This document shows, in pieces, positions 15,793 to 56,253 of a DNA stretch of 64,000 bases (within the stretch, counting starts at the first letter, position 1; each line of letters starts with the position of its first letter). The position numbers and the translations under genes were made by a program. A model generated the notes under the pieces. That model ran no database searches. It saw only the letters and a list, made by a program, of their open reading frames with translations, and had not been told where the DNA came from. The DNA comes from Pandoraea capi (lineage in GTDB: Bacteria; Pseudomonadota; Gammaproteobacteria; Burkholderiales; Burkholderiaceae). The DNA lies in the NCBI RefSeq assembly GCF_902459735.1, contig NZ_CABPRV010000003.1:682001-746000 (forward strand), given 5' to 3'.

Positions 15793-16548
15793 ATGCTCGC
15801 CGAACAACGCCAACAATACGTGCTTGAACAACTCGCCAAGACCGGCGCGCTCGCCATCAGCGATCTGGTGCGGGAGTTGGGTGTCTCGCGCGAGACCGTG
15901 CGACGCGACCTCAACACGCTCGCCGCCCGTGGATTGCTGCTCATGACGCACGGCGGCGCACTGGCGGCCGATCGCAGCGAGCCCGACTGGACGCTGCGCG
16001 AGAACGTCAACGCCGTGGGCAAGCGCGCCATCGGCGTGCGCGCAGCGGAGCTGGTGCCCGACGGTGCGTCGGTGATCATCGACTACGGCACGACCACCCG
16101 TGCCGTGGCGCAGGCGCTGCTCTCGAAGCATCGCCTGCGCATCTACACGAACGACTGGCAGATCGCGCGTTTGCTCGGCCGTCATCACGACAACCGCGTC
16201 ACGCTGCTCGGCGGCGAGTTGCAGGACAACGAAGACGCCGTGCAGGGCTGGGACGCCATCAACCAGATCGCCCAATACCATGCCGACTTCGCCTTCATCG
16301 GTGTCGGTGGCTTGACGGAGGACGGTGGCATCACCGACTTCAACCGGGCTGCGGCCGAACTGCGTGCGCGCATGTTGCTGTGCGCGAACGTTGCCGCCGT
16401 GGTCGCGGACCACACCAAGTTCGGACGTGTCACCCCGGTGCGCATCCGCCATTTCGAAGCCGCGCGCTACCTCATCAGCGACGCCGCGCCGCACAAGAGC
16501 ATGCTGGCCCAACTGCGTGCGCGCGGTCCGGAACTGCTGATCGCCTGA
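15793..16548 (+). CDS. DeoR/GlpR-family transcriptional regulator next to phnCDE
   Basis: The 251-residue protein has the DeoR N-terminal winged helix (QQYVLEQLAKTGALAISDLVRELGVSRETVRRDLNTLAARGLLLMTHGGA) and the C-terminal sugar-phosphate-binding DeoRC domain (SVIIDYGTTTRAVAQALL; FIGVGGLTEDGGITDFNRAAAE). Such regulators usually sense phosphorylated sugars. C-P lyase produces ribose phosphates, and the gene ends 528 bp before phnC on the same strand, so it is a plausible local regulator of phosphonate uptake. That role is inferred from position only. Confidence 0.88.
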   Translation: MLAEQRQQYVLEQLAKTGALAISDLVRELGVSRETVRRDLNTLAARGLLLMTHGGALAADRSEPDWTLRENVNAVGKRAIGVRAAELVPDGASVIIDYGTTTRAVAQALLSKHRLRIYTNDWQIARLLGRHHDNRVTLLGGELQDNEDAVQGWDAINQIAQYHADFAFIGVGGLTEDGGITDFNRAAAELRARMLLCANVAAVVADHTKFGRVTPVRIRHFEAARYLISDAAPHKSMLAQLRARGPELLIA

Positions 16549-16915
16549 CGCTGGCCGACGCGCACCAACGCGCCGCAACCCGCCAGAATCTCGGCATCGG
16601 GGAGCGCGCCATACGTCGCCACACCACGCCACACGTCGCCAAGACGTGTGCGCTTCACCGCAAAAGTCTCGTCGTCTATACCTTTTGGGAAGCCTTGCGG
16701 CGCGGCCTTTTGCTGCCGTTTCTCCAGTCAATACACGTGCGGCGGTTTTTCAAAAATATGTAGACAAAGTGCCTTCGTCGCTCGACGAACGGTGCCGCAC
16801 AATCTCATCCCTCCTGACGGTCCCGTCGGCGTTGCGAAGTCCCTCGTGCGCCCTGAAACATTGGCAACTCGTTGAGTAGATAAGGGTTTTCGCCATCCCG
16901 GAAAAAGCTGATCGA
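16549..16915. other. Non-coding spacer upstream of phnC
   Basis: No convincing gene is seen here. The part from about 16660 is richer in A/T than its surroundings and leads into the regulatory sites before phnC. Open frames in it are short and lack family resemblance. Confidence 0.5.
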
Positions 16916-16949
16916 TTGTCACTGTGTTGTCATCCGCGCTTTTTAGACT
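16916..16949 (+). promoter_or_regulatory. Candidate Pho box and -10 for phnCDE
   Basis: Two direct half-sites, TTGTCAC (16916-16922) and TTGTCAT (16927-16933), are separated by 4 bp, giving the 11-bp periodicity of PhoB boxes (consensus CTGTCAT). A -10-like TAGACT (16944-16949) follows exactly 10 bp later, the spacing used when PhoB replaces a -35 element. Read by eye; supported by the same geometry before phnG. Confidence 0.6.
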
Positions 16950-17076: not shown

Positions 17077-17952
17077 GTGGACGAAGCGATTCGAATCGAG
17101 CGACTGACCAAGACTTTCGGCAGCGGCCGCCGTGCTCTGGACGAAGTGGCACTCAAAGTCATGCCGGGCGAAATGGTCGCCCTGATCGGGGCGTCGGGCT
17201 CGGGCAAGTCGACGCTGATGCGTCACATTGCGGGCTTTGTCCCGGCCGACCAGCAGCCGGGCAGCATCGAGATTCTCGGTCGCCCGATTCAGCGCGACGG
17301 ACGCATCGTGCGCGAAGTGCGTCAGATCCGCCGCGACATCGGCTTCGTCTTCCAGCAGTTCAACCTCGTTGGCCGTCTGCCGGTCATCACCAACGTGCTG
17401 ACGGGCCTGCTCGCCCGCGTGCCGCTGTGGCGCAGCCTGATGTTCCGCTTCACGTCGGCCGAGCGTCAGGCCGCACTGACAGCGCTCGCAGAAGTCGGCA
17501 TCGCCGATCTGGCGTTCCAGCGCGCGAGCACGCTCTCCGGCGGTCAGCAGCAGCGCGCGGCGCTCGCTCGCACGCTCGTGCAGGGTGCAAAGATCATTCT
17601 CGCGGACGAACCGATTGCGTCGCTCGATCCGGAGTCGGCACGCAAGGTGATGGACATGCTCGCGCGCATGAATCGCGATCACAAACTCACGGTCGTGGTC
17701 TCGTTGCACCAGGTGGACGTGGCCATGCGTTACTGCGTGCGCACCGTCGCGCTGCATCAGGGTCGCGTGGTGTACGACGGTCCGTCGTCGGCGCTCACGC
17801 CGGACCTGCTGCGTCGCCTGTACGGCGTGCAGGCGAGCGAGTTGCTCAACGAATCGACGGACGAAGCGGAAGGCGCCGCCGTCGACGCCAGCGCGAAGCC
17901 GGCCGAGGCCGAAGCCCCGTTCCTGACGTCGATGTCGCTGAGCCTTTCCTGA
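17077..17952 (+). CDS. phnC: Phosphonate ABC transporter ATP-binding protein PhnC
   Basis: PhnC powers import of phosphonates through PhnE. The 291-residue ABC ATPase has Walker A GASGSGKS (38-45), Q-loop [12 protein letters not shown], signature [15 protein letters not shown], Walker [14 protein letters not shown] and switch His SLHQVDVA. The GTG start at 17077 is preceded by ACAGGTGA. An Ala/Glu-rich C-terminal tail of about 35 residues extends beyond the usual fold. phnD and phnE follow on the same strand. Confidence 0.96.
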
Positions 17953-17976
17953 ACCTCGCGCACGACTCACCCATTT

Positions 17977-18010
17977 CGTCTCAAACCGTCTCAAACCGCC
18001 TCAAACCGTC
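17977..18010. repeat. 10-bp tandem repeat between phnC and phnD
   Basis: CGTCTCAAAC is repeated three times (the third with one change, CGCC) plus a partial CGTC, starting 25 bp after the phnC stop. It is a local tandem duplication in the intercistronic spacer. Confidence 0.85.
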
Positions 18011-18057
18011 GTACTTAAGCCTTAACCAAGGCCTTATCTGACCAGGAGCTTGCTCTC

Positions 18058-19026
18058 ATGAAATTGTGGAAATCCCTGCTGGCCGGCGCGGCCATGATCG
18101 CCTCGGTGGCGGTGGTACACGCGCAGGAAATCAACTTCGGCATCATCTCGACCGATTCCAGCGCCGCGCTGCGTCAACGCTGGCAGCCGCTGATCGACGA
18201 CATGGAGAAGCAAACGGGTCTGAAGGTGACGCCGTTCTTTGCCACCGACTACGCCGGCGTGATCGAAGGCATGCGCTTCAACAAGGTGCAGCTCGCGTGG
18301 ATGGGCAACAAGGGCGCGATGGAAGCCGTGGACCGCTCACAAGGCGAAGTCTTCGCGAAGATCATGTACGCCGACGGCACCGAAGGCTACTACTCTCTGC
18401 TGATCTCGAACGCATCGAGCCCGTACAAGACGCTCGAGGACGTGATCAAGAACGGCAAGAAGATCAACTTCGGTCTGGGCGATCCGACCTCGACGTCGGG
18501 CACGCTGGTGCCGGGTTACTACGTCTTCGCCAAGAACAACATCGATCCGCGCACGTACTTCAAGACGGCGCGCAGCTCGAATCACGGTGCGAACCTGATG
18601 GCGGTCATCAACAATCAGGTGGACGTGGCGACGAACAACACCGAAGAGCTCAACAAGCTCGAAGCCACACAGCCGGAGAAGGCCAGGCAGGTTCACGTGA
18701 TCTGGAAGTCGCCGCTGATTCCGTCAGACCCGCTGCTGTGGCGCAAGGACCTGCCGGACGGCACGAAGAAGAAGATTCGCGACTTCTTCCTCGCCTACGG
18801 CAAGGACGCGCACGAGAAGGAAGTGCTCAAGAACATTTACAACTACGGCGGCTTCCGTGCCTCGTCGGATGCGCAACTGCTGCCGATCCGTCAGCTCGAA
18901 CTCTTCAAGCAGAAGGTGCAGCTTGAGCAGGACGCCAATGTCGATGCGGCCAAGAAGAAGACGCAACTGGCCGATCTCGACGGCAAGCTGGCAGCGCTCG
19001 ACAAAGAACTGAACAAGACGAAGTAA
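18058..19026 (+). CDS. phnD: Phosphonate ABC transporter periplasmic binding protein PhnD
   Basis: PhnD captures phosphonates in the periplasm and hands them to PhnE. The 322-residue protein has a signal peptide ([16 protein letters not shown], cleavage near residue 22) and the family text [49 protein letters not shown] and [20 protein letters not shown] Lys/Glu-rich C-terminal helix closes it. ATG 18058 is preceded by CAGGAGCT. Confidence 0.96.
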
Positions 19027-19043
19027 GCAAGGCTTGTGGTGGC

Positions 19044-19079
19044 AGACGGTCGACCGGCAACGGTCGGCCGTCTTAATTT
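19044..19079 (+). terminator. Stem-loop between phnD and phnE (attenuator or mRNA-stabilising hairpin)
   Basis: A 13-bp stem with a single G-U pair and a GCAA (GNRA) tetraloop lies at 19044-19073 and is followed by TTAATTT. It begins 18 bp after the phnD stop. Hairpins at this place are known to lower permease relative to binding-protein expression or to protect upstream mRNA. Confidence 0.65.
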
Positions 19080-19123
19080 CCTCACCGGCGGCTACCGAGC
19101 CGGTACGACTCGTGGTACTCGAC

Positions 19124-19930
19124 ATGAACACCAGCGCATCTATTACTGCCAATGGCCGACTGCCGGGCGAGCCGCCCAAGCGTTCGTGGCTCTCCCTCAT
19201 CAGCTGGGGCATCTTTTTTCTGGTCCTGGTGTGGTCGTGGAGCGGCGCCGACATGCGTCCGCTCGATCTGATTCGCGATTCGGGCAACATGAGCCAGTTC
19301 GCGCACGATTTCTTCCCGCCCGACTTCCACGACTGGCGGGTGTACGTCCACGAGATGATCGTAACGATTCACATCGCAGTCTGGGGCACGGCGCTCGCGG
19401 TGGTGTGTTCGATTCCGATGGGGTTGCTCAGCGCGTCGAACATGGTGCCGGCGTGGGTCTACCAGCCGGTGCGTCGCGTGATGGACGCTTGCCGCGCGAT
19501 CAATGAAATGGTGTTCGCGATGCTCTTCATCGTGGCCGTCGGTCTCGGTCCGTTCGCCGGTGTGCTCGCGCTGTGGGTGCACACGACGGGTACGCTCTCG
19601 AAGTTGTTCGCCGAGGCGGTCGAAGCGATCGATCCGCGTCCGGTCGAAGGCGTGCGTGCCACGGGCGCTCGCGCCATCGACGAGATTCTGTACGGCGTGC
19701 TGCCGCAGGTCATGCCGCTGTGGATTTCGTACACGCTGTACCGCTTCGAGTCGAACGTGCGCTCCGCGTCGGTGGTGGGCATGGTCGGCGCCGGCGGCAT
19801 CGGCGTGGTGCTCTACGAAGTGATCCGCAGCTTCCAGTACGCGCAGACGTGTGCGGTGATGGTCATCATGGTCATCGTCGTGACGTGCATCGACATCTTC
19901 TCGGCGCGCGTGCGCAAGATGGTGATCTGA
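19124..19930 (+). CDS. phnE: Phosphonate ABC transporter permease PhnE
   Basis: PhnE is the inner-membrane channel of the phosphonate importer. The 268-residue protein has about six transmembrane helices ([20 protein letters not shown] first) and the EAA loop [33 protein letters not shown] that contacts PhnC. There is one PhnE here, complete and unbroken. ATG 19124 ([10 protein letters not shown]) is preferred over the spacer frame upstream. It ends at a bidirectional terminator facing phnM. Confidence 0.96.
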
Positions 19931-19956
19931 CGTTTCGCAAGTGGTGTCGTAACGAA

Positions 19957-19978
19957 AAAGGCCGCATCAGCGGCCTTT
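19957..19978. terminator. Bidirectional terminator between phnE and phnM
   Basis: A perfect 9-bp stem AAAGGCCGC/GCGGCCTTT with an ATCA loop carries T-runs in both directions. It separates the convergent phnCDE and phnGHIJKLM operons. Confidence 0.88.
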
Positions 19979-20000
19979 CTCATGAGATGACGTACGGGGC

Positions 20001-21146
20001 TCAGGCGATGCGCTGCCCGACCATATACGTCTCACGCGGAATCGGCGGCATGCCGGGGCGGGTGGCCACGCGCACCATGTCGGCGCGCAGACCCGGTGCG
20101 ATGCCGCCGCGATCCGTCAGGCCGGCCGATTGCGCCGGGTTCCACGACACCGTGCGCATGGCCTTCGACAGGGTCCAGCCGCAGTCGGCATGATCGTTGT
20201 GCAACTGGAACGCCGCTTGCAGCAGACTCGCCGGCACATAGTCCGACGACAGGATGTCGAGCACGTCGTTGCGCGCGAGTTCCGCGGCCGCCACGTTGCC
20301 CGAGTGCGAGCCGCCACGCACCACGTTCGGCGCCCCCATGATCACGCCGATCGACTTCTCGTGCGCTGCGCGGGCTGCCACCAGCGTCGTCGGGAATTCG
20401 GACAGCGCCACGCCGTCGCGCTCGGCCTCTTCCACATGTTCGAGCGACGTATCGTCGTGGCTCGCGAGCGGCAGGCCACGCGCACGGCTCATCTCGACGA
20501 TGGTGCGACGATGCGGGATCGCATACTTCTCCTGCTGCGCCTTCAGATCGGCGAGCATCGCGTCCCATTGCGCGTCGGGCACCTTGCCGTTGCGCTCGTG
20601 ATATTGACGATGCAGCACCGGATCGTGCCACTGACGCTGACCCGGCGTGTGATCCATCACCGACACGAGACGCAGCAACGGGTGATTGCACATGTCGGCG
20701 AACGTGTCCGCCGCGTCCTGCGTGGCGATCTCGCAGCGCAGATGCAGAAAGTGATCCGCACGGAAGAGCCCGGCGGCAATCGTGTCGAGCAGCGCCTGAC
20801 CGCACTCCGCCTGCACCTTGCGGCTGCGCAGACCGGAGGCGTCGCGCTCGCCGATCACCAGCGAATCGAAGACGGTGGTGATGCCGGCGGCTGCGACCTG
20901 CGCGTCGTGAATGGCGAACGCGGCGTGCGTGTTCCAGTACACCCCGGGGCGCGGCGCCAGATGCTTTTCCAGGTTGTCGGTGTGCAACTCGACCAGACCC
21001 GGCACCAGATAGTCGCCTTCCCAGTCGATGGCCTCGGCGGCCTGCGTGGTGCCTTCTTCGGCCGAGTGGATGAGACCCTCGCGCACTTCTACGACCCCTG
21101 TGAAGGTGGTATCGGGCGTGACGATGCGAGCGTTCTTGATAAGCAT
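20001..21146 (-). CDS. phnM: Alpha-D-ribose 1-methylphosphonate 5-triphosphate diphosphatase PhnM
   Basis: PhnM removes pyrophosphate from the ribose-phosphonate triphosphate made by PhnGHIL, giving the substrate of PhnJ. It is an amidohydrolase: ELHTDNLEKHLAPRPG holds the metal-binding His/Asp, and LHLRCEIATQD, SHDDTSLEH and NVVRGGSHSGN are other family blocks. ATG 21146 (MLIKNARIVTPD, 381 aa) has GGAG upstream; a TTG seven codons earlier overlaps phnL. It is the last gene of the operon. Confidence 0.96.
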   Translation of the reverse strand: MLIKNARIVTPDTTFTGVVEVREGLIHSAEEGTTQAAEAIDWEGDYLVPGLVELHTDNLEKHLAPRPGVYWNTHAAFAIHDAQVAAAGITTVFDSLVIGERDASGLRSRKVQAECGQALLDTIAAGLFRADHFLHLRCEIATQDAADTFADMCNHPLLRLVSVMDHTPGQRQWHDPVLHRQYHERNGKVPDAQWDAMLADLKAQQEKYAIPHRRTIVEMSRARGLPLASHDDTSLEHVEEAERDGVALSEFPTTLVAARAAHEKSIGVIMGAPNVVRGGSHSGNVAAAELARNDVLDILSSDYVPASLLQAAFQLHNDHADCGWTLSKAMRTVSWNPAQSAGLTDRGGIAPGLRADMVRVATRPGMPPIPRETYMVGQRIA

Positions 21147-21163
21147 GGACAAACTCCGGGGGA

Positions 21164-21970
21164 TCAATGAGCGGGACGAAGCACGGGACGCATGGCGAGC
21201 GTGCGCGTCGCCACTTCGTCGCGGGTCGCCTCGTCGTGGAAGATGCCCACGATGGCGCTACCTGCGGCACGGGCTTCGGTAATCAGTTGCGAGACCACGG
21301 CGCGGTTCCGGGCGTCGAGCGACGCGGTCGGCTCGTCGAGCAGCAGCACGGGGGCGGCGGCAATCAGCCCGCGCGCGATGTTGATGCGCTGTTGTTCGCC
21401 GCCCGAGAACGTCGCCGGCGCGAGCGTCCAGAGGCGCTCGGGAATGTTCAGGCGCGCGAGCAGGTCGCGCGCACGTCCCGTTGCATCGGCTTCGCCGTGG
21501 CCCAGACGACGCAGCGGTTCCGCCACGATGTCCAGCGTGCTCACGCGGGGAATCACGCGCAGAAACTGGCTGACGTAACCGAGCGTCGAGCGACGCACGG
21601 ACAGGACTTCGCGCGCGGTGGCGGTCGTGATGTCGACCCAGCGCTCGCCCTGACCGGTATCGTGACGAATCTCGATGCGGCCCTCGCCGGCGAGGTAGTT
21701 GCCGTACAGACAGCGCAGCAGCGTGCTCTTGCCCGAGCCCGAAGGGCCGACGAGCGCGACACATTCGCCGCGCCGTACCGTCAGATCGATACCTTCGAGC
21801 GCGGGAATCGCGGCGCCGCCCTGCGCGTGCAGGCGGAAGGTCTTGTGCAGACCGTGCGCGCGCAGCATGACGTCGTCCTCGCGCGTGCCGGGCGTGAGCG
21901 CTGCATCACCGAGTGAAGTTGCCGAAGTGGTCGAGGTGGCCGACGGCGTGAATTGAGTTCCGGAGTTCAT
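21164..21970 (-). CDS. phnL: C-P lyase accessory ABC-type ATPase PhnL
   Basis: PhnL is an ABC-like subunit that, with PhnG/H/I, supports displacement of adenine from ATP by phosphonate. The 268-residue protein has Walker [14 protein letters not shown]-loop [13 protein letters not shown], signature [15 protein letters not shown] and Walker [13 protein letters not shown]. About 35 Ser/Thr-rich N-terminal residues precede the fold, more than in E. coli; an internal ATG ([11 protein letters not shown]) could be the true start. It overlaps phnK by 4 bp. Confidence 0.95.
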
Positions 21971-22782
21971 ACGGGCAGCACCGAGGAGACCAGCAATTGC
22001 GTATAGGGATGTTGGGGATCGTCGAGAACCTGATCGGTCAGCCCGGCTTCGACCACGCGGCCCGCCTGCATCACGATGAGACGGTGCGCAATGAGTCGCG
22101 CCACACCGATATCGTGCGTGACGATGATGGCGGCAAGATGAAGGCGCTCCACGAGCGAGCGCAGCAGGTCGAGCAGACGTGCCTGCACCGAGACGTCGAG
22201 ACCGGCGGTCGGCTCGTCCATGAACACCAGACGCGGTTCGGTGACCAGATTGCGCGCGATTTGCAGACGTTGTTGCATCCCGCCGGAGAACGCGCCGGGC
22301 ATTTCGTCGACCCGTGACGGATCGAGTTCGACCTGCGCCATCCAGTGACGCGCCTTCTCGCGAATGTCGCCGAAGTGACGTGCGCCGACGGCCATCAGAC
22401 GGTCGCCGATGTTGCCGCCGGCGGAGACGTTCATGCGCAGTCCGTCACGCGGGTTCTGCTCGACGAAACCCCACTCGGTGCGCAGCAGGCGGCGCTTGTG
22501 CGCTTCGTCCAGCGCGCACAGATCGTGCAGCGTGCCGTCGGTGCCGCGATAGTGCAGCGAGCCTGCGTCGATCTCGTGGCGCAGGGCGAGCGCGTTGAGT
22601 AGCGTCGACTTGCCCGAGCCGGACTCGCCAACGACACAAACCACTTCACCCGGCCACAGATCGAAGCTCACGTCGGCGCAGCCGATGCGATCGCCGTAAT
22701 GCTTGCCCAGCCCTGCGACCTGGAGCAGCGGCTCGTCCATCGGCGCCGCAGCGCGCAGCGCTGTATCAATGACCGCGTTCAT
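21967..22782 (-). CDS. phnK: C-P lyase ABC-type ATPase PhnK
   Basis: PhnK binds the PhnGHIJ core and its ATP cycle opens the complex for turnover. The 271-residue protein has Walker [13 protein letters not shown], signature [15 protein letters not shown], Walker [14 protein letters not shown] and switch His IVTHDIGVA. It resembles oligopeptide-type ATPases ([18 protein letters not shown]), as PhnK does. ATG 22782 overlaps the phnJ stop (ATGA). Confidence 0.96.
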
Positions 22783-23735
22783 GCGTTCTCCTTTGCGGCT
22801 TTCGACGCGTGGGCGGCATGGGCGGCATGCGCGACGTCGGCCATGCTGGCCGAAGCACGATCGCCGCAGTAATCGCTGTCCGAGCACACGTACATGCGCG
22901 AGCCTTCGTCGTCGGTGATGACTTCGTCGAGGAAGCTGTCGGTCGCACCGCACAGGGCGCAGTGCGCGTCCCACTTCTGGATCTCGAACGGGTGATCGTC
23001 GAAGTCGAGACTCTCGACCGACGTGTACGGCGGAATCGCGTACAGACGTCGTTCGCGTCCCGCGCCGAAGAGTTGCAGCGCCGGGTTCATATGCAGCTTG
23101 GGGTTATCGAATTTCGGAATCGGTGACGGCGACATCAGGTAACGGCCGTTGACGATCACCGGATAGTCATAAGTCGTGGCGATCGCGCCGTGACGCACGA
23201 TGTCTTCGTACAGACGTACGCGCATGAGGCCATACTCGCCGAGTGCGTGCAGCTTGCGCGACTCGTTGATGCGCGGCTCCAGGCGATACATGGGTTCGGG
23301 CATCGGCACCTGAAACACGAGGATCTGACCGTCGTGCAGCGCAACTTCGGGAATGCGGTGACGGGTCTGGATGACGGTGGCTTCCGACGTCTTCGTCGTG
23401 GTGGCCACGCCCGCCGTGCGCGCAAAGAAGCGGCGGATGTTCACGGCGTTGGTCGTGTCGTCTGCGCCCTGATCGATGACCTTGAGCGTGTCGTCCGAGC
23501 CGATCACGGCGGCGCTGACCTGAATGCCGCCCGTGCCCCAGCCGTAAGGCAGCGGCATCTCGCGGCTGCCGAACGGCACCTGATAGCCGGGAATCGCCAC
23601 GGCCTTGAGCAGGCTGCGGCGAATCATGCGTTTGGTGTGCTCGTCGAGGAACGCGAAGTTGTAGCCGTCGGTGGTGGTCGATGCGCTCCGGGTCGCGGTG
23701 TCGGGGGTGTCGTGCAATGTGGCGGCGGGGTTCAT
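22779..23735 (-). CDS. phnJ: Alpha-D-ribose 1-methylphosphonate 5-phosphate C-P lyase PhnJ
   Basis: PhnJ is the radical-SAM enzyme that breaks the carbon-phosphorus bond, releasing the alkane and a ribose cyclic phosphate. The 4Fe-4S and catalytic Cys are C259, C262, C284 and C290 (HCALC...YVCSDSDYC), with the same spacing as in E. coli PhnJ. The glycyl-radical region IPGYQVPFGSREMPLPYGWGTGG is intact near residue 50. At 318 residues it is about 37 longer than the E. coli protein, through an N-terminal extension and an AHAAHAAHA tail. It overlaps phnI and phnK by 4 bp. Confidence 0.98.
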   Translation of the reverse strand: MNPAATLHDTPDTATRSASTTTDGYNFAFLDEHTKRMIRRSLLKAVAIPGYQVPFGSREMPLPYGWGTGGIQVSAAVIGSDDTLKVIDQGADDTTNAVNIRRFFARTAGVATTTKTSEATVIQTRHRIPEVALHDGQILVFQVPMPEPMYRLEPRINESRKLHALGEYGLMRVRLYEDIVRHGAIATTYDYPVIVNGRYLMSPSPIPKFDNPKLHMNPALQLFGAGRERRLYAIPPYTSVESLDFDDHPFEIQKWDAHCALCGATDSFLDEVITDDEGSRMYVCSDSDYCGDRASASMADVAHAAHAAHASKAAKENA

Positions 23736-25051: not shown

Positions 25052-25695
25052 CAGCAAACCTCCACGTGCGTAGTGCGCGGCAACCCGAGCACCGAGTCGC
25101 CTGCGACGATCAGCAGATCGAGACCGGCGGGAAAGCGCGGTGCAAGGGCGGCGCGGGCCTGCCAGAAGGCCGCCGTCAGTCCGCCGACGGTGACGTCCGC
25201 ATGTGTCTGAATACCGGGGCCGCGCAGGCGCAGACGCAGCGCGTCGTTATTCGTGTCGCCTTCATGACCCTCATGAAGCGCGGGCACATCGACGATCAGC
25301 GTGGCGCTGTGCTCCGGCGACTCGGCCGTGCCGAACGCGAAGCGCTCCAGCGCCGGGCAGTTCGCGGGATCGGTGAGTAAAGCGAACTGGGCCGTTGCCG
25401 GCCCTGCTTCGTCGCCGAGCAGCGGGGCGCCGGTGTGAAAGCGCAGCGCGCTCGACACTTCGCCGAGCGGCGCCTGCAACCACACCGGCGTCGTGGCGTC
25501 TGCCAGCGCAAGGAGGATGGCGCGTGCCGCGATGCTGGCTTCGTCACAATGGGCGAGCCGCCCGCCGACACTGCGCAACTGGCCGGGGCGCGCGAGCGCA
25601 TCGAGCACCGCGCGGAAGACGCCCTGCGCGTCGTGGACCGGATCGTCGAAACCGGGTTGCAGATCCGACCAGTCGGGAATCGTTGCCGTCAGCAT
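25051..25695 (-). CDS. phnH: C-P lyase core subunit PhnH
   Basis: PhnH is a non-catalytic core subunit of the PhnGHIJ complex. The 214-residue protein carries family text QPGFDDPVHDAQGVFRAVLDALARPGQL near the N-terminus and LRLRGPGIQ in the C-terminal half. phnG ends directly at its ATG (TGAATG junction, no spacer), so translation is coupled. Confidence 0.95.
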   Translation of the reverse strand: MLTATIPDWSDLQPGFDDPVHDAQGVFRAVLDALARPGQLRSVGGRLAHCDEASIAARAILLALADATTPVWLQAPLGEVSSALRFHTGAPLLGDEAGPATAQFALLTDPANCPALERFAFGTAESPEHSATLIVDVPALHEGHEGDTNNDALRLRLRGPGIQTHADVTVGGLTAAFWQARAALAPRFPAGLDLLIVAGDSVLGLPRTTHVEVC

Positions 25696-26187
25696 TCAGG
25701 CCTCCCGGACCATGGTGAAGAATTCGACACGGCTGGCAGCGGCGTCGGCATCGTTTTGCGCTGCGGTGGCAGCCAGACGTTCGGAGATGGCGGTGAGCGC
25801 ACCGGCCGCGAGCACACTGCGGTGCTGGGGCATCTGCATGAGCGCGTCCAGACGCGCCACGCGCACCGCGCGTTCCGCATCGCGGCCGAGCACGTAACCC
25901 GTGCCGACCACGCCATCCTGCTGACGTAGCGTGCAACGCGTGACGGTTGTCTCGCCGAGGTTGAAACGGTCGCCGCTGCCGCCTACGCGGCCCTGCACCA
26001 GCACCAGGCCGGTCTGCGGCGCACGCAGCCAGATGAAGGACGGGGCGTCGGGGCAACGGGCGATAGCGGCGTCGAGTTCGTCGCGCGTCGCGCGTGCAAA
26101 CAACGCGAGCCACTTGGCGCGGTCGGTCCGCTGTTGCGGGGCGCCGCCGTCCTCGTCACGCGTTGTGTCGGAAGATGTGATTGGCAT
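25696..26187 (-). CDS. phnG: C-P lyase core subunit PhnG
   Basis: PhnG is the small core subunit that, with PhnH/I/L, forms ribose-phosphonate triphosphate. The 163-residue protein shows RAKWLALFARAT near the start and RFNLGETTVTRCTLR and GTGYVLGRDAERA, typical of the family. It is the first gene of phnGHIJKLM; the promoter region holds a candidate Pho box, and the PhnF operator falls in its leader. Confidence 0.95.
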   Translation of the reverse strand: MPITSSDTTRDEDGGAPQQRTDRAKWLALFARATRDELDAAIARCPDAPSFIWLRAPQTGLVLVQGRVGGSGDRFNLGETTVTRCTLRQQDGVVGTGYVLGRDAERAVRVARLDALMQMPQHRSVLAAGALTAISERLAATAAQNDADAAASRVEFFTMVREA

Positions 26188-47244: not shown

Positions 47245-47249
47245 CGTGG

Positions 47250-48344
47250 CTACCCCTGACGGAAGACGCGCACGGCGGCGCTCGGCACCGCGAAGCGCAG
47301 CGCGCCGCCGGTGGCCGGTTGCAGGGCCTGCATGTCCGCAGGCGAGAGGTCGGCATAGAGCGGGTGATCGCAGGCCTGCATGCGCAACGTCACGCGCGAG
47401 AATGCCCCGAGGAATTCGATCTTCTCGACGGCGCCGTCGAACAGATTCGCATCGTCGTCGAGGTCGTCCAGATCGCGCACGCGCACGTCCTCCGGTCGGA
47501 AGAAGACACGGATGTCCTCACCGGCACGGCATCCGTTGAGCGTGCCGCACGTCAGTTCGAATTGCCCGACGCGCACGCGTCCTGCGTCGCCAAGTCGCGC
47601 GGGCAGGATGTTGGTCTTGCCCACGAAGTCCGCGACGAACGGCGTTGCCGGATGCTGATAGATCTCGCCGGGGGTGCCGACCTGTTCGATCACGCCCTGA
47701 TTCATGACGACGATCCGGTCGGCCATGGACAGCGCCTCTTCCTGATCGTGCGTGACGAGAATCGTGGTGATGCCGAGCCGCTGCTGCAACGCGCGGATCT
47801 CGCTGCGCAGACGCACCCGCACGCGCGCATCGAGCGCCGAGAGCGGTTCGTCGAGTAACAGCAGGCCCGGCGACGTGGCGAGTGCGCGTGCGATGGCGAT
47901 ACGTTGCTGCTGGCCGCCGGATAGCTGGCCGGGGAACTTGCCGCCGGCATCGGGCAGCCCGACCATCGTCAGCAACTCGGCCACACGCGCATCGCGCTCG
48001 GTGCGAGGCACCCGGCGATTCGTCAGGCCATAGGCCACGTTCTGCGCCACGCTCAGATTCGGAAACAGCGCGTACGACTGGAAGACGATGCCGTAATCGC
48101 GCTGCATCGGCGGCAGCCGCGAGATGTCCCGGCCGTTTTGCGACAGCGTGCCCTGCGTTTGCGCTTCCAGCCCCGCAATGATGCGCAGCAGCGTGGTCTT
48201 GCCGCAGCCCGACGGGCCGAGGAAGCAGAGCATCTCACCGCGTCTCACGGTGAGGTGAATGTCATGCAGCACCACGGTGTTGTCGAACCGCTTGTGGATG
48301 CCGGCGAGACTCAGATACGTACTTTGGCGAGGATCGTCGCTCAT
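47250..48344 (-). CDS. phnT: 2-aminoethylphosphonate ABC transporter ATP-binding protein
   Basis: The 364-residue ATPase has Walker A GPSGCGKTTLL, Q-loop FQSYALFPNLS, signature [15 protein letters not shown], Walker B LLLLDEPLSALD and a C-terminal TOBE domain (FRPEDVRVRD...), as in MalK-type regulators. ATG 48344 (MSDDPRQS) has AGGAGG 8 bp upstream; a GTG eight codons earlier would lack it. It lies between phnS and the fused permease. Confidence 0.94.
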   Translation of the reverse strand: MSDDPRQSTYLSLAGIHKRFDNTVVLHDIHLTVRRGEMLCFLGPSGCGKTTLLRIIAGLEAQTQGTLSQNGRDISRLPPMQRDYGIVFQSYALFPNLSVAQNVAYGLTNRRVPRTERDARVAELLTMVGLPDAGGKFPGQLSGGQQQRIAIARALATSPGLLLLDEPLSALDARVRVRLRSEIRALQQRLGITTILVTHDQEEALSMADRIVVMNQGVIEQVGTPGEIYQHPATPFVADFVGKTNILPARLGDAGRVRVGQFELTCGTLNGCRAGEDIRVFFRPEDVRVRDLDDLDDDANLFDGAVEKIEFLGAFSRVTLRMQACDHPLYADLSPADMQALQPATGGALRFAVPSAAVRVFRQG

Positions 48345-48431
48345 TCGGGGGACCTCCTGCGTTGTCACGTGAGTGAGGGGCGTTCGTTTGCGCTGCCGCG
48401 CAAGGCAGTGCGGGCAGCGCGACGCCAGACG

Positions 48432-49472
48432 TCACTTCTTTTCCGATTTCGCGCCGTAGCGCTTCTGCCACTCGGACAGCACCGACTCGCGGCTCTTGGC
48501 GATTTCCGTGAAGTCGTTCTTCACCAGCAGATCGGGGTAGTTCGCAGGGATCGTCTCGAACTTCCTCGCGACGCCCGGGTACGCCACGATCGCCCAGTCT
48601 TTCGCGTACATCTCATTCGCTTCCTTGCTGGCGAGCCAGTCCATGTAGCGCTTGGCGGCATCGAGCTTCTTAGTCGTCTTCACGATGCCCGCCGCTTCGA
48701 TGTCGTAGCCGAGACCTTCCTTCGGGAACACGAGATCGATGGGGGCGCCGGCGGCTTTCGTGCGATGCGCGTTGAATTCGAACGAGATGCCGATGGGGTA
48801 TTCGCCCGCGCCGGCATCGCGGCAGGGCTTGGAGCCCGAGTGGGTGTACTTGACGATGTTCTTGTCGAGAGCGTCCATGTACTTCCAGCCGCCTTCCTTG
48901 CCGAACATCTGCAACCACGCGGTCACATCCAGGAACCCGGTGCCGGACGTCGCCGGATTCGGCATCACGATCATCCCTTTGTAGATGGGCTTGGCGAGGT
49001 CTTCCCAGGACGTCGGCTTGGGCAAATTGCGCTTGGCCGCTTCGACCGTGTTGAAGCAGACCGTGGCGCCCCACACGTCGAGGCCGACCCACGACGGCGG
49101 ATTCGCCTTATCGCTGTACGCACGCGTGAGCTGATCGAAGCCCTTCGGTGCGTACGGCGTGAGCAAACCTTCCTGCTTGATGAGCTCCAGACTCGACGCG
49201 GCGAGCCCGGCAATCACGTCCGCCTGCGGGTTGGCCTTCTCCGCGAGGACCTTCGCCGTGACCACGCCGGTGGAGTCACGCACGTACTTGATCTCGATGT
49301 CCGGATTCGCCTTCTGGAACGCCTCGGCGTACGGGCGCATCACTTCGACTTCCCACGCCGTGTAGACGGTCAGCGTGGTCTTGGCGAACGCATGACCGGC
49401 CTGTACGGCACAGACGAGGCCTGTTGCGAGAACAGCGGCGGCGCGCATGGCACGGCGCAAGGATGAGTTCAT
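48432..49472 (-). CDS. phnS: 2-aminoethylphosphonate ABC transporter periplasmic binding protein
   Basis: The 346-residue extracellular solute-binding protein has a signal peptide (MRAAAVLATGLVCAVQAGHAFA, cleavage near residue 30) followed by KTTLTVYTAWEVEVMRPYAEAFQKANPDIEIKYVRDSTGVVTAK, the iron/AEP-binding type fold. Position with phnT, the fused permease and phnW assigns AEP as ligand. AGGAGCC precedes ATG 49472. It is the first gene of the leftward operon. Confidence 0.93.
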   Translation of the reverse strand: MNSSLRRAMRAAAVLATGLVCAVQAGHAFAKTTLTVYTAWEVEVMRPYAEAFQKANPDIEIKYVRDSTGVVTAKVLAEKANPQADVIAGLAASSLELIKQEGLLTPYAPKGFDQLTRAYSDKANPPSWVGLDVWGATVCFNTVEAAKRNLPKPTSWEDLAKPIYKGMIVMPNPATSGTGFLDVTAWLQMFGKEGGWKYMDALDKNIVKYTHSGSKPCRDAGAGEYPIGISFEFNAHRTKAAGAPIDLVFPKEGLGYDIEAAGIVKTTKKLDAAKRYMDWLASKEANEMYAKDWAIVAYPGVARKFETIPANYPDLLVKNDFTEIAKSRESVLSEWQKRYGAKSEKK

Positions 49473-49589
49473 GGATGGCTCCTGTGGGTCGCGATCACGG
49501 TCGCGTTGTGAGTACGGGCAAAGCCTTCTTTGAGGCGATTTTTTGCATTTTATTGGCAAATTATGTCGTTTTCTTGAAACCCTTAGCTT

Positions 49590-49623
49590 TTGTCATCTGT
49601 TCGTCAAATACCTCCAATAGTAT
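49590..49623 (+). promoter_or_regulatory. Candidate (weak) Pho box and -10 in the phnS/phnR spacer
   Basis: TTGTCAT (49590-49596), 4 bp, TCGTCAA (49601-49607), 10 bp and TAGTAT (49618-49623) repeat the geometry seen before phnC and phnG. The second half-site matches only 4 of 7 consensus bases, so this is weaker. It points toward phnR-phnA-phnY. Confidence 0.35.
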
Positions 49624-49775
49624 GGAAATCGTTGATTCAGATAGGGTTTTGTCGTTGCCGCAACCGACTCACCCCGACGGTGTTGCAAAATCTGTCTGCA
49701 AAGTCGGATGTGTTTTGTTGACAATCTACAAATCGCTGTGCTTGAATGTCAATAACAAAAATAATCACGTGATGC

Positions 49776-49788
49776 CACAAATTGCCAC
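49776..49788. promoter_or_regulatory. 13-mer shared with the phnC upstream region
   Basis: CACAAATTGCCAC here is identical to 16964-16976. A diverged inverted copy (TTGGCAAATTATG, 49553-49565, 10 of 13) lies at the phnS end of the same AT-rich spacer. Together they may form operators for a shared regulator. The rest of 49473-49881 holds no gene. Confidence 0.45.
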
Positions 49789-49881
49789 GCAGCGCTATCC
49801 GGCGAAGCGATGGCGAAGGATGCCCCCGAAGTGCCGGGCGTCGCGTGATGGCGCAAGCGTTCAGAGATAAGGAAGATCGGT

Positions 49882-50598
49882 ATGACCCCGAAGCCCACGT
49901 CGCCCACGGCGATCGAGTTGTTGCAGAGCCAGTCGCTCACCACGCTCGTCCAGCACGAGATCGAGCGCCAGATCATGGCGGGCACGCTTACGCCGGGTAC
50001 CAAGCTCAACGAGATCGAGGTGGCAGGAAGTCTCGGCGTGTCGCGTGGTCCCGTGCGTGAGGCGTTTCGCGCGCTCGAAGAGGCCGGGCTGCTGCGCACC
50101 GAGAAGAATCGCGGCGTGTTCGTGCGTGTCATTTCGCTCGAAGAGGCCGAGGAGATTTACGCGCTGCGCGGCGTGCTCGACGAATACGTCGCGCGCACCC
50201 TGGCGGAGTCGATTACGTCCGAACAACTCACGCGGCTGCGCGAGTCGGTGGAAGCCATGCACCACGCGGTGGAAGCGGGCGACAGCGAGGCTTATTACCA
50301 GTTGAATCTGGCGTTCCACGACACGCTCGTCGAGATGGTCGGCAACCGCAAGTTGCTCGAGACCTACCGGCGTCTCGTGAAGGAGCTGAGCCTGTTCCGT
50401 CACGAAGCGTTGACGGGCGATTCGTCCGCGCCGCCGAAGTCGGAGCGCGAGCACCGCGACATCGTGAGCGCGATTGCCTCGCGCGATCCGGAGCGGGCCA
50501 CGCAGGTCACGCGCGATCACCTGGTGCGCGGCCGCACGCGGATTCGCGAGATGCTGGCCCGCGCGCCGGGAACGAGCACGCAGGCGAAGGCCGGTTGA
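49882..50598 (+). CDS. phnR: Phosphonate-utilisation GntR-family regulator (PhnR type)
   Basis: The 238-residue protein has a GntR winged helix (GTKLNEIEVAGSLGVSRGPVREAFRALEEAGLLRTEKNRGVFV) and an FCD ligand domain with metal-site residues (NLAFHDTLVEMVGN, EHRDIVSAIASRDPERA). Its place between the phnS-phnW operon and phnA-phnY indicates control of AEP catabolism. It differs from PhnF, which has a UTRA domain. ATG 49882 is preceded by AAGGAAG. Confidence 0.92.
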   Translation: MTPKPTSPTAIELLQSQSLTTLVQHEIERQIMAGTLTPGTKLNEIEVAGSLGVSRGPVREAFRALEEAGLLRTEKNRGVFVRVISLEEAEEIYALRGVLDEYVARTLAESITSEQLTRLRESVEAMHHAVEAGDSEAYYQLNLAFHDTLVEMVGNRKLLETYRRLVKELSLFRHEALTGDSSAPPKSEREHRDIVSAIASRDPERATQVTRDHLVRGRTRIREMLARAPGTSTQAKAG

Positions 50599-50600
50599 GT

Positions 50601-52017
<1,417 letters not shown>

Positions 52018-52126
52018 TCGGATGTCGGCCCGAATGCAATGAAATGAGAGCCAGGGGCGCGCGAAACCCGCAAGGCGTGCGCCGCCCGGCCCCTGTCCAG
52101 TCGTTGGAGACGTTGTGGAGAACCCC

Positions 52127-53581
52127 ATGAACGCGCCGCACAAGCTGCATCCCGAGTTCCGCGCCGAAGCCCTTCGCATCGGTGGCGAGAAAGTGACCCG
52201 CGAACGGATCATCGAAGTGTTCAATCCGTATTCGGGCGATCTGGTCGGCACCGTGCCGAAGGCGTCGCTCGACGACGTGCGTCGCGCGTTCACGATCGCC
52301 AAGCAGTACCGCTCCACGCTCACGCGTTTCGAGCGCGCCAATGTGCTCGATAAGGCCGCGGCGTTGCTGCGCGCCCGCACGGCGGAAGCGGCCGCCATCA
52401 TCACGATGGAGTCGGGGCTGTGCAAGAAAGACGCCGTCTACGAAATCGGCCGTGTGGCCGACGTGCTCGGTTTCGCGGCGGGCGAGGCGCTCAAGGACGA
52501 CGGACAGGCGTTCTCCTGCGATCTCACGCCGCACGGCAAGAAGCGTCGCGTGGTGACGCAGCGCGAGCCGCTGCTCGGGGCGATCTCCGCGATCACGCCG
52601 TTCAATCACCCCATGAATCAGGTGGCCCACAAGGTGGCCCCCTCGATTGCGACGAATAACCGGATGGTGCTCAAGCCGTCCGAGAAAGTACCGCTCTCGG
52701 CTTACTACCTGGCGGACACGCTGTACGAAGCCGGCCTGCCGCCGGAAATGCTGCAAGTCATCACGGGCGATCCGATGGAGATTGCCGACGAGATGATCAC
52801 TAACGAGAACATCGACATGATCACGTTCACGGGCGGCGTGTCGATCGGCAAGTACATCGCGTCGAAGGCGGGCTATCGCCGTATCGTGCTGGAGCTGGGC
52901 GGCAACGATCCGCTGATCGTGATGGAGGATGCCGATCTGGAGCGCGCCACCGACCTCGCAGTGCAGGGCTCTTACAAGAATTCCGGGCAGCGGTGTACGG
53001 CCGTCAAGCGCATGCTCGTGCATCGCGATATTGCCGCGCAGTTCACCGAACTCGTGGTGGAGAAGACCCGGGCGTGGAAGTATGGCGACCCGGCGGACGG
53101 CGACAACGACATGGGCACCGTGATCGACGAGGCAGCCGCCCGTCTGTTCGAGGCCCGCGTGAACGAAGCCGTGGCGCAGGGCGCGCGTCTGCTCGTGGGC
53201 AATCAGCGCGATGGCGCCCTGTATTCGCCGACGGTGATCGATCGCGTCGATCCGAAAATGACGGTCGTGCGCGAGGAAACCTTCGGCCCGGTCTCGCCGA
53301 TCCTGACCTTCGGCAGCATCGACGAGGCCATCGCCATGTCGAACGGCACCGCGTTCGGTCTGTCGTCAGGGGTATGCACGAACCGGCTCGACTACGTGAC
53401 GCGTTTTACCAACGAGTTGCAGGTCGGTACGGTCAACGTCTGGGAGGTGCCCGGATATCGCATCGAACTGACGCCGTTCGGGGGGATCAAGGATTCGGGT
53501 CTGGGCTACAAGGAAGGGGTTCAGGAGGCGATGAAAAGCTTCACGAACACAAAGACCTTTACGTTGCCATGGGGAATCTGA
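52127..53581 (+). CDS. phnY: Phosphonoacetaldehyde dehydrogenase PhnY
   Basis: PhnY oxidises phosphonoacetaldehyde to phosphonoacetate with NAD+, joining PhnW to PhnA. The 484-residue aldehyde dehydrogenase has Asn160 (TPFNHP), Glu256 (LELGGND) and catalytic Cys290 (SGQRCTAVKR). The C-terminal GYRIELTPFGGIKDSGLGYKEGVQEAMK is typical. ATG 52127 is preferred (GGAGAACCCC upstream); GTG 52115 is possible. This is not the unrelated dioxygenase that also bears the name PhnY*. Confidence 0.95.
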   Translation: MNAPHKLHPEFRAEALRIGGEKVTRERIIEVFNPYSGDLVGTVPKASLDDVRRAFTIAKQYRSTLTRFERANVLDKAAALLRARTAEAAAIITMESGLCKKDAVYEIGRVADVLGFAAGEALKDDGQAFSCDLTPHGKKRRVVTQREPLLGAISAITPFNHPMNQVAHKVAPSIATNNRMVLKPSEKVPLSAYYLADTLYEAGLPPEMLQVITGDPMEIADEMITNENIDMITFTGGVSIGKYIASKAGYRRIVLELGGNDPLIVMEDADLERATDLAVQGSYKNSGQRCTAVKRMLVHRDIAAQFTELVVEKTRAWKYGDPADGDNDMGTVIDEAAARLFEARVNEAVAQGARLLVGNQRDGALYSPTVIDRVDPKMTVVREETFGPVSPILTFGSIDEAIAMSNGTAFGLSSGVCTNRLDYVTRFTNELQVGTVNVWEVPGYRIELTPFGGIKDSGLGYKEGVQEAMKSFTNTKTFTLPWGI

Positions 53582-53918
53582 GGCGGATTGCCCTCGGACC
53601 GGGAGCGGATGCGGCGGCGGTGGCGGCGGCCGAAAAGCGATGGCTGTCGGGGCGTCGGCCGCGTCTGTTTCCCTTATGCAACAAGGCTTAGCAGAAGGCG
53701 CGCAAAAATTGTGACAAATTCATGACACGATTGTTGCGCTGGTCAATTTGGTGTACGGTGTACCGATTGGGGATACGCATGACGCGCGAACTTCATACGC
53801 ATCCCGACGCCAGTGTTGGACTGACGCGGGATGCCGGTTCGGCAAACCACAGCTCGCGTCATGTTGGCGGCGCGAAGCGCTGCCTGTCCCGTCGACAATA
53901 AGATCACCTAACACTGGC
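53582..53918. promoter_or_regulatory. Spacer before the Na/Pi carrier gene, with a reversed Pho-box-like element
   Basis: At 53711-53728 two half-sites GTGACAA and ATGACAC lie 4 bp apart. On the minus strand they read GTGTCAT and TTGTCAC, a good Pho-box match but pointing away from the carrier gene, with no -10 at the usual distance. A direct repeat GGTGTAC (53750-53756, 53757-53763) follows. No gene is supported here. Confidence 0.35.
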
Positions 53919-55745
53919 ATGCTGACACTGCTCAATCTACTTTCCGGCGTGGCGATGCTGATCTGGGGTACGCACATCGTGCGTACCGGGGTCCTGCGCG
54001 TCTACGGTGCCGATCTGCGACGCATTCTGTCGCACAGCATTTCGAATCGCTTCCTTGCGTTCGCGGCGGGTGTGCTCGTCACGGGCCTGGTGCAGAGCAG
54101 TAACGCGACGGCGCTCATCGTGTCGTCGTTCGGTGCGCAGGGTCTCATCGCGTTGGCACCGGCCCTGTCCATCATGTTGGGCGCCGACGTCGGCACCGCC
54201 CTCATGGCGCGGATCCTGACGTTCGACCTGCACTGGCTGTCGCCGCTGCTGATCTTCTTCGGCGTCATCTTCTTCCTGTCACGCAAGCAGACGCGCGCTG
54301 GCCAGCTCGGCCGCGTGTCCATCGGCCTTGGTCTCATCATTCTGGCGCTGCAACTGATCGTGGGCGCGACCACGCCGATGACCGAAGCGGCGGGCGTGAA
54401 AGTGCTGTTCGGCTCGCTCACGGGCGACGTGATGCTCGATACGCTGATCGGCGCGCTTTTCGCGATGATCTCGTACTCCAGTCTGGCGGCTGTGCTGCTG
54501 ACGGCCACGCTCGCGTCGTCTGGCGTGATCTCGCTCAAGGTGGCCCTGTGCCTCGTGATCGGTGCGAATCTGGGCAGCGGCATGCTGGCCATGCTGACGT
54601 CGGCGGGACAGAACGCGGCGGGTCGTCGTGTGGTGTTCGGCAGTCTCATCTTCAAGCTGATCGGCTGCCTGCTCGTGCTGCCGTTCGTCGACTATGCGCC
54701 GATGCTCGTGAGCTGGCTGTCGGACGCACCGGCACAAGCCGTCGTCAACTTCCACGTGCTGTACAACCTGGTGCGCTGCGTGGTGAGCCTGGCATTCACT
54801 GCGCCGATGGCGCGCCTTTGCGTGCGTCTGCTGGCCGAGAAGCCGGAAGCCGACGGTGTCACGCGCCCTCGCCATCTGGACGAAAGCGCGCTGGAGATGC
54901 CGTCGCTGGCGCTGGCCAACGCCACGCGCGAGACGCTGCGCATGGGCGACATCATCGAGCAGATGCTCAATGGCTTGCTCGACGTCATCAAGAGCAATGA
55001 CGTGGCGCGCGCTCGCGAGACGCGACGACTGGACGACGACGTCGACCACCTCTACACGGCGGTGAAGATGTACCTGACGCGCGTGTCGCGCGAGAACCTC
55101 AGCGAGCCGGACAGCCGCCGCTGGACGGACATCATCTCCCTCACCATCAATCTGGAACATGCGGGCGACATCATCGAGCGCATGGTCGTCGAAGTCGAAG
55201 AGAAGAAGATTTCGCACAAGTTGTCGTTCTCCGAGGCGGGGTTGCAGGAGATCTGCGACATGCACGCGCGGCTGGTGACGAACCTGCAACTCGGGCTGTC
55301 CGTGTTCCTGAATACCGACCTCAAGAGCGCGCAGCGCCTGATGGCGGAGAAGGAGAGCTTCCGGGATCTGGAGCGCGCGTATTCGTACACGCACCTGAAC
55401 CGTCTGGCAGGTCAGTCGGTGCAGAGTATCGAGACGAGTTCGCTGCATCTGGACATCATCAGCGACATGAAGCGCCTGAATTCGCTGTTCTGCTCGACGG
55501 CTTATCCGGTGCTCGACGATGCCGGCGCGCTGCGCAAGAGCCGCATGCGCGACAAGCCGAAGGACGGCAAGGACGCGAAGGAAAGCAAGGATCTGAAGGC
55601 GCCGAAGGAAGCCAAGGCGTCGAAACTGGCGGCGCTTGCCGAAGTCGCGACGGCCGCCGCCGGCTCAGCAGCAAGTTCTCGCGACGACAACGAGAGTTCT
55701 CACGATGGCCCTGAGCCTGCCGGACATCCGCACCCTGTTCGATAA
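53919..55745 (+). CDS. Na+/phosphate cotransporter family protein with PhoU-like C-terminus
   Basis: The 608-residue protein has a Na/Pi-cotransporter membrane half with the duplicated QSS-type motif (TGLVQSSNATALIVSSFGAQGL; second copy MISYSSLAAVLLTATLASSGVI). The C-terminal half is a helical PhoU-like domain (METHR-type text ETLRMGDIIEQMLNGLLDVIK, LEHAGDIIERMVVEVEEKK) and ends in a Lys/Glu/Ala-rich tail. It carries phosphate across the inner membrane; direction cannot be told. Its place after phnA-phnY suggests a role in balancing phosphate released from phosphonates. ATG 53919 begins at the first helix. Confidence 0.9.
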   Translation: MLTLLNLLSGVAMLIWGTHIVRTGVLRVYGADLRRILSHSISNRFLAFAAGVLVTGLVQSSNATALIVSSFGAQGLIALAPALSIMLGADVGTALMARILTFDLHWLSPLLIFFGVIFFLSRKQTRAGQLGRVSIGLGLIILALQLIVGATTPMTEAAGVKVLFGSLTGDVMLDTLIGALFAMISYSSLAAVLLTATLASSGVISLKVALCLVIGANLGSGMLAMLTSAGQNAAGRRVVFGSLIFKLIGCLLVLPFVDYAPMLVSWLSDAPAQAVVNFHVLYNLVRCVVSLAFTAPMARLCVRLLAEKPEADGVTRPRHLDESALEMPSLALANATRETLRMGDIIEQMLNGLLDVIKSNDVARARETRRLDDDVDHLYTAVKMYLTRVSRENLSEPDSRRWTDIISLTINLEHAGDIIERMVVEVEEKKISHKLSFSEAGLQEICDMHARLVTNLQLGLSVFLNTDLKSAQRLMAEKESFRDLERAYSYTHLNRLAGQSVQSIETSSLHLDIISDMKRLNSLFCSTAYPVLDDAGALRKSRMRDKPKDGKDAKESKDLKAPKEAKASKLAALAEVATAAAGSAASSRDDNESSHDGPEPAGHPHPVR

Positions 55746-56253
55746 ATTCGGTTCGATCGCTTACAGCGGCGAGCCTGTCACCCAACTGGAGCACGCGCTG
55801 CAAAGCGGCGCGCTTGCCGAGAGCGAGGGCGCCGACGAGGCGCTCGTCGCCGCCAGTTTCCTCCACGATCTCGGCCATCTGCTCAATCTTCAGGGCGAAA
55901 CGCCCACCGAGCGCGGCATCGACGATCTGCATCAATACTTCGCATTGCCCTTTCTGAGGCCGCTGTTCGACGACGCGGTGCTCGACCCGATTCGTCTGCA
56001 CGTGGACGCCAAGCGGTGTCTGTGCGCGATCGATGCCGATTACTACGGCAAGCTGTCGGCGGATTCGGTACGCAGTCTGGCGTTGCAGGGCGGGGTCTTC
56101 ACCGACGAAGAAGCGCAGACGTTCCTCGCGAGCGAGCATGCGCCGGCGGCGCTGCGACTGCGTCGCTGGGACGACCGTGCAAAGATCGCCGGCATGCAGA
56201 CGCCATCGCTGGATCACTACATGAAGGTGCTGGAGCGGGTGACGTTGCAGTAG
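55705..56253 (+). CDS. PhnZ-like HD-domain protein of phosphonate loci
   Basis: PhnZ-type enzymes are mixed-valent di-iron oxygenases that cleave 1-hydroxy-phosphonates. The 182-residue protein has Tyr20 and Glu23 (YSGEPVTQLEHALQ), metal ligands His30, His54-Asp55 and His58 (FLHDLGH), His76, His99, Lys103 (RLHVDAKRCL) and Asp156, matching the PhnZ pattern. The partner dioxygenase that makes the hydroxy-phosphonate is not in the window, so the substrate is open. It overlaps the 3' end of the Na/Pi carrier by 41 bp. Confidence 0.85.
   Translation: MALSLPDIRTLFDKFGSIAYSGEPVTQLEHALQSGALAESEGADEALVAASFLHDLGHLLNLQGETPTERGIDDLHQYFALPFLRPLFDDAVLDPIRLHVDAKRCLCAIDADYYGKLSADSVRSLALQGGVFTDEEAQTFLASEHAPAALRLRRWDDRAKIAGMQTPSLDHYMKVLERVTLQ

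Follow-up and report, generated by a model that had tools for sequence, protein, structure and literature searches.

Two phosphonate modules and a YjbB-type phosphate carrier at one chromosomal site in Pandoraea

Within a stretch of 64,000 nucleotides of its 5.85-Mb genome (positions 682001-746000 of contig 3, referred to here as the window), Pandoraea capi carries two routes of phosphonate degradation, a carbon-phosphorus (C-P) lyase block and a block dedicated to 2-aminoethylphosphonate (AEP). These are two separate, ordinary phosphonate modules at one chromosomal site in Pandoraea; the coexistence of both routes in one genome is already known from Stappia and Shinella, and their side-by-side presence is by itself of little consequence. 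The most informative part of the locus, and a lead worth a test, is a carrier gene in the AEP block, whose product combines Na/Pi transporter repeats (Na/Pi-cotransporter family) with a PhoU domain and is encoded near phnA in several genera. We propose that this carrier exports surplus inorganic phosphate (Pi) during AEP use, and give this two-module account a probability of about one half.

Genes were called by family profile searches against curated NCBIfam cut-offs and Pfam. All genes named in the first-pass annotation were found in the window, and its observation of two phosphonate pathways in one stretch is confirmed, with corrections. The gene at 15793, where it had let the phn stretch begin, codes for a DeoR-type regulator, and the C-P lyase block begins at 17077; its 'full C-P lyase set' holds for the core phnGHIJKLM, which is complete, and for phnCDE, phnF and phnN, but phnP had no match in a profile search of the whole genome. 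Both blocks look intact (C-P lyase block, 17077-28387; AEP block, 44226-56253), and phnN and phnW lie 15.8 kb apart, close to the 'about 16 kb' first given. The AEP block consists of the following genes, all of which reach their family cut-off:

44226-45359, - strand, phnW, AEP transaminase
45448-47244, - strand, phnU2, AEP importer
47250-48368, - strand, phnT2, AEP importer
48432-49559, - strand, phnS2, AEP importer
49882-50598, + strand, phnR (burk type)
50677-52017, + strand, phnA
52115-53581, + strand, phnY
53919-55745 (likely start 53919), + strand, Na/Pi-PhoU (YjbB-type) carrier
55705-56253 (likely start 55705), + strand, Phn-HD, PhnZ-like oxygenase

PhnA aligns along its whole length with the solved phosphonoacetate hydrolase 1ei6, and Phn-HD retains the Tyr, Glu, His and Asp positions of PhnZ and TmpB, which we take to be active-site residues for metal and substrate. 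The genome has three matches to PhnX, all far below the cut-off. A search for a hydroxylase partner of Phn-HD (PhnY* or TmpA) found four PhyH-type matches genome-wide and none above the PhnY-type cut-off: one scores above the cut-off of a chlorinating-enzyme family, one below that of the ectoine hydroxylases, one matches the same family very weakly and one matches no family. The AEP importer is less constant, its binding protein passing the cut-off in 22 of 32 genus genomes and failing in 10, one of them a reduced genome of 1.2 Mb, and at several Pandoraea loci phnW adjoins phnR with no AEP importer between them. The C-P lyase block comprises:

17077-17952, + strand, phnC, phosphonate importer
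18058-19026, + strand, phnD, phosphonate importer
19034-19930, + strand, phnE, phosphonate importer
20001-26187, - strand, C-P lyase core phnG to phnM, facing phnCDE, made up of the next seven genes
20001-21167, - strand, phnM
21164-21970, - strand, phnL
21967-22734 (likely start 22734), - strand, phnK
22779-23735, - strand, phnJ (Pfam PF06007, 6e-146)
23732-25057, - strand, phnI (Pfam PF05861, 6e-159)
25051-25695, - strand, phnH
25696-26187, - strand, phnG
26278-27042, + strand, phnF
27039-27818, + strand, DUF1045 protein with two HxT motifs, between phnF and phnN
27815-28387, + strand, phnN

Pfam identifies phnJ and phnI, and every other phn gene of this block passes one or more of the curated NCBIfam cut-offs. 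In PhnJ, the four cysteines and the glycine motif, presumably its functional residues, align with those of Escherichia coli PhnJ. The E. coli operon likewise contains phnCDE, phnF, phnGHIJKLM and phnN, but the Pandoraea genome lacks phnP and has the DUF1045 gene instead, and its core and phnF-N lie on opposite strands. The DUF1045 protein matches TIGR03223 at 249.3 bits (cut-off 248.95) and probably takes the place of PhnP; in the cited part of one study, DUF1045 proteins are proposed as stand-ins for PhnP, which is not universal in C-P lyase pathways (PMC8235418). One genome of the sample described below, G062, holds a second full-length PhnJ match elsewhere (G062:C19:18511-19344).

What is observed is the gene content, the retained residues, the linkage, the overlap of carrier and Phn-HD described below and the repeated presence of such carriers near PhnA; the following account of substrates, of regulation and most of all of the way in which phosphate moves is inferred. 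PhnCDE would import varied phosphonates, from which the C-P lyase core would strip phosphate, probably under phosphorus starvation, with the DUF1045 protein probably opening the cyclic ribose phosphate instead of PhnP. PhnS2T2U2 would import AEP, and PhnW, PhnY and PhnA would convert it to acetate and phosphate, the amino group passing to alanine; this block would probably be active whenever AEP is present. Phn-HD would probably cleave ready-made (R)-1-hydroxy-AEP to glycine and phosphate. Since AEP holds one phosphorus per one nitrogen and two carbons, its use as a nitrogen or carbon source would yield phosphate beyond the need of the cell, and the Na/Pi-PhoU carrier would export the surplus. 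The first-pass view that phosphonates serve as phosphorus source, and AEP as a source of phosphorus, nitrogen and perhaps carbon, is partly supported: the gene content agrees with it. A closely comparable case is Stappia stellulata, which according to the cited part of its description has both routes in its genome, with an AEP importer of the same kind beside phnWAY (aepXVW-phnWAY), and exports Pi when grown on AEP as nitrogen source, C-P lyase proteins not being abundant then; in contrast to Pandoraea with its Phn-HD, Stappia makes PbfA (PMC8316502). As excerpted here, a marine survey finds that C-P lyase and specific routes seldom co-occur and that phnZ is often paired with phnA or phnX (PMC9381506).

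The carrier is read as an exporter because it recurs beside PhnA, is not seen beside PhnJ and belongs to the YjbB family; the part of the literature cited here regards the YjbB of Salmonella as exporting Pi (PMC10055408). In a family sample of 200 genomes (23 in the genus, 19 of these with PhnJ and 22 with PhnA), 32 of the 112 PhnA places have a carrier no more than 10 kb away, namely all 22 in the genus and 10 of 90 outside it, the latter in three genera; of the PhnJ places tested, 0 of 80 have one at that distance. Outside the genus the difference between PhnA and PhnJ gives a Fisher p of 0.006, not corrected for relatedness. Among plasmids, 119 records carry PhnA, 60 of them among the matches listed, and of the 20 loci opened, picked for diversity, seven show a complete carrier gene no more than 8 kb from PhnA (Aminobacter twice, Sinorhizobium meliloti, S. 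medicae, Ensifer adhaerens, Leisingera thetidis pBMJM1_1 and Ruegeria sp. AD91A), while a plasmid of Shinella sp. WSD5-1 has a truncated carrier near PhnA. A class-wide survey of 369 genomes added four with PhnA above cut-off (L143-L146), and at one of their loci a carrier match, about 7 kb off, runs to the end of the fetched stretch. Across a first carrier tree of 29 rows the PhnA-neighbour state changes three times, and across a second of 34 rows six times, at least five of these changes being forced by well-supported branches; in both trees long branches meet, the rows were chosen by hand and gains are indistinguishable from losses. On these trees, PhnA-adjacent carriers belong to separate supported clades of the carrier family.

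Of eight carriers without PhnA that were opened, six lie near phosphatase, sugar-phosphate or glycerol-phosphate genes rather than phosphonate genes: an inositol monophosphatase in S. meliloti pSymB and Leisingera caerulea, ugpBAEC in Sulfitobacter, a SurE nucleotidase in Phyllobacterium, a trehalose-phosphatase in Rahnella, and sucrose phosphorylase with an ATP-binding cassette (ABC) importer on an Agrobacterium Ti plasmid (L199). The other two, in Ruegeria pomeroyi and, beside glmU, in S. meliloti, have no such gene nearby. As many as 136 Agrobacterium plasmid records match the carrier family.

In Pandoraea the carrier and Phn-HD genes overlap by 41 nucleotides, both in the window and at 27 of 27 further loci (22 distinct contigs). 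A search with Phn-HD returned Pandoraea for all of the first 15 named loci, at 75-93 % identity; in genus g3 (L103, L105, L119) a relative of 47-49 % identity sits inside a C-P lyase cluster beside phnE and phnN. Clusters of phnR, phnA, phnY and Phn-HD in Paraburkholderia and Caballeronia (L018-L082) mostly share the order phnA, phnY, Phn-HD, but have no carrier between phnY and Phn-HD, and no C-P lyase gene was matched in the fetched stretch, which was often ended by a contig end after Phn-HD. Many of the Paraburkholderia contigs stop within about 1 kb past Phn-HD, as if a repeated element followed. The relevant part of another study reports PhnZ-like genes in 24 of 75 phnWAY clusters, none of them with pbfA, and names R-HAEP as the likely substrate (PMC8154272).

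Three Pho-box-like sites are conserved at corresponding places in the Pandoraea rows compared:

16916-16933, + strand, before phnC, same place in 8 of 8 rows
26270-26287, - strand, between phnG and phnF, also an inverted repeat, 9 of 9 rows
53711-53728, - strand, before the carrier and reversed relative to it, 26 of 28 rows (five being second fetches of the same contig)

The window holds seven Pho-box-like matches against 3.2 expected, a number reached by 3 of 100 shuffles. The C-P lyase block may plausibly be under phosphate control, as the conserved sites at its promoters fit a response to phosphorus starvation. The contrast with the AEP block is not clean, however: a slightly weaker site is conserved at the AEP promoter as well, and the pstS region of the same genome does not outscore these sites. 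The reversed site before the carrier is missing in two genomes that lack the C-P lyase (G048 and G072) and present in G031, which also lacks the core. A scan of 27 carrier loci in other genera for a conserved site found only three look-alikes, two in g3 (L136, L166) with the same orientation and one in Sinorhizobium (L187) with the opposite one. We tentatively put forward a bolder version of the export proposal, which may well be wrong in its full form: the PhnA-adjacent carrier would be the unnamed Pi exporter of Pi-insensitive AEP mineralisation that arrived several times independently beside PhnA and is coupled to Phn-HD in Pandoraea, where PhoB, acting at the reversed site, would repress it under phosphate scarcity, the locus thus gathering Pi by C-P lyase or venting it in AEP use.

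Several observations weigh against export and the coupling of the carrier to AEP use. Outside the genus, 80 of the 90 PhnA places have no carrier within 10 kb, and 12 of the 20 opened plasmid loci have none within 8 kb. The constant overlap may merely reflect conserved first residues of Phn-HD, and since the likely start of the carrier lies 337 nucleotides past phnY, it may have its own promoter. A Pho-box-like site in the phnS2-phnR gap, matching at 10 (once 11) of 14 positions, is kept in all 17 rows, and phosphate may therefore influence the AEP block as well. As for Phn-HD, one of the PhyH proteins belongs to no family and another is weakly matched, so a hydroxylase partner may exist. Other members of the carrier superfamily import phosphate. 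Finally, the position of the Pandoraea carrier between apt/lysE and uvrA is probably the ancestral one, and it may lie close to phnAY only because of the site at which the phn genes landed.

This last point leads to a rival reading, in which a Na/Pi importer or Pi-balance protein with a housekeeping role came to lie between phnY and Phn-HD by accident of that landing. Five loci fetched from genera g3 and g24 have a related carrier in the order apt-(lysE)-carrier-uvrA, uninterrupted by any other gene of the window, the trees group the Pandoraea carrier with these, and the 337 nucleotides together with a Pho-box-like site separate it from phnY. Nevertheless, unrelated branches of the family adjoin PhnA in other genera and in Alphaproteobacteria, and the overlap with Phn-HD is present at every Pandoraea locus checked; we consider this reading unlikely, though a serious contender. 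It is rather improbable that the carrier imports AEP or phosphonoacetate as a sodium/phosphonate symporter. This label is given to yjbB in a figure legend on alphaproteobacterial phnWAY operons in a 2016 paper on Shinella sp. DD12, which resembles Pandoraea in having C-P lyase and phnWAY in its genome and a YjbB-type gene in the phnWAY operon figure but differs in this label and in a LysR-type regulator, and the cited excerpt mentions no Phn-HD (PMC4748535). Several Pandoraea also keep the carrier without an AEP importer at the locus. On the other hand, the carrier belongs to a phosphate family and bears a PhoU domain, most carrier-bearing loci have an AEP importer as well, and carriers without PhnA keep the company of phosphatase, sugar-phosphate or glycerol-phosphate genes in six of eight cases, not of phosphonate genes.

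A synteny survey of relatives, set beforehand as a refutation test for the first-pass interpretation, gave a mixed answer, linkage of the loci being upheld whereas one of them has decayed in some relatives. Of the 19 genus genomes with both PhnJ and PhnA, 18 have them on a single contig at distances of 12.2-37.5 kb; in the 19th, a draft of 1120 contigs, they are on different contigs. Outside the genus, PhnJ-bearing genomes have 33 PhnA places, of which 14 share a contig with PhnJ, the closest at 133 kb, and 19 are on other contigs. PhnJ is absent from 3 of the 22 PhnA-bearing genus genomes: G031 retains phnCDE but has lost phnG to phnN, and G048 and G072 have no C-P lyase gene at the site and no PhnJ genome-wide. 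The C-P lyase is therefore dispensable; the blocks are separate, individually dispensable modules sharing a site, and their close linkage looks like a genus trait without evident function. That they form one co-regulated functional unit held together by selection for joint use is very improbable, for despite the linkage in 18 genomes, PhnJ is missing from three, the genes between the blocks are unrelated and variable, and none of the 14 same-contig pairs outside the genus is so linked.

Compared with the apt-carrier-uvrA order above, Pandoraea has the phn genes on the lysE side of the carrier, with lysE beyond them, and Phn-HD on its uvrA side. G048 and G072 read apt-lysE-deoR-DMGDH-like-NUDIX-purU-phnW-another ABC importer-phnR-phnA-phnY-carrier-Phn-HD-orf342-uvrA, and in other Pandoraea species the C-P lyase follows deoR and precedes the DMGDH-like gene. 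G017, the only g17 genome opened, has apt-C-P lyase-NUDIX-purU-orf342-uvrA, with PhnA 910 kb off. The C-P lyase may thus have occupied this site already before the origin of Pandoraea, and G048 and G072 may have lost it.

The remaining genes at the site have an uncertain link to the phn blocks or are not phn genes by name:

15793-16548, + strand, DeoR/GlpR-type regulator, adjoining the C-P lyase block
28462-31116 (start possibly further in), + strand, DMGDH-like FAD/GcvT protein
31214-32065, + strand, NUDIX protein
32277-33149, + strand, purU

The regulator scores below the cut-off of every family matched and adjoins the DMGDH-like gene in G048 and G072. Besides the last three genes, the gap between the blocks, whose content varies among Pandoraea, holds an MFS carrier, a DUF488 protein and, at 35829-43889, a protein of 2686 residues with autotransporter repeats (PATR) and an ESPR signal. 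The DMGDH-like protein, perhaps an N-methyl-AEP demethylase and perhaps a chance neighbour, has relatives next to phnWAY at 66-67 % identity in Sinorhizobium, at 68 % in Phyllobacterium and at 81-87 % in genus g20. A role in using sarcosine from glyphosate breakdown by C-P lyase was rejected, as the gene is present in G048 and G072, which lack C-P lyase, whereas G062 has C-P lyase but no DMGDH-like gene at the locus. Past Phn-HD, at 57054-59100, genes for a RidA-like protein, a PALP-type pyridoxal-phosphate enzyme and a YheO-like regulator follow, a trio shared by most named Pandoraea loci, L084 and L085 being exceptions.

When AEP serves as their nitrogen source, bacteria set free phosphate that becomes available to other organisms, which has been proposed, in the cited part of the Stappia study, to be of importance for phosphorus cycling in the sea (PMC8316502). 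If the carrier is indeed the exporter in this process, its gene alone would be a marker by which AEP users that release phosphate could be recognised in genomes and metagenomes.

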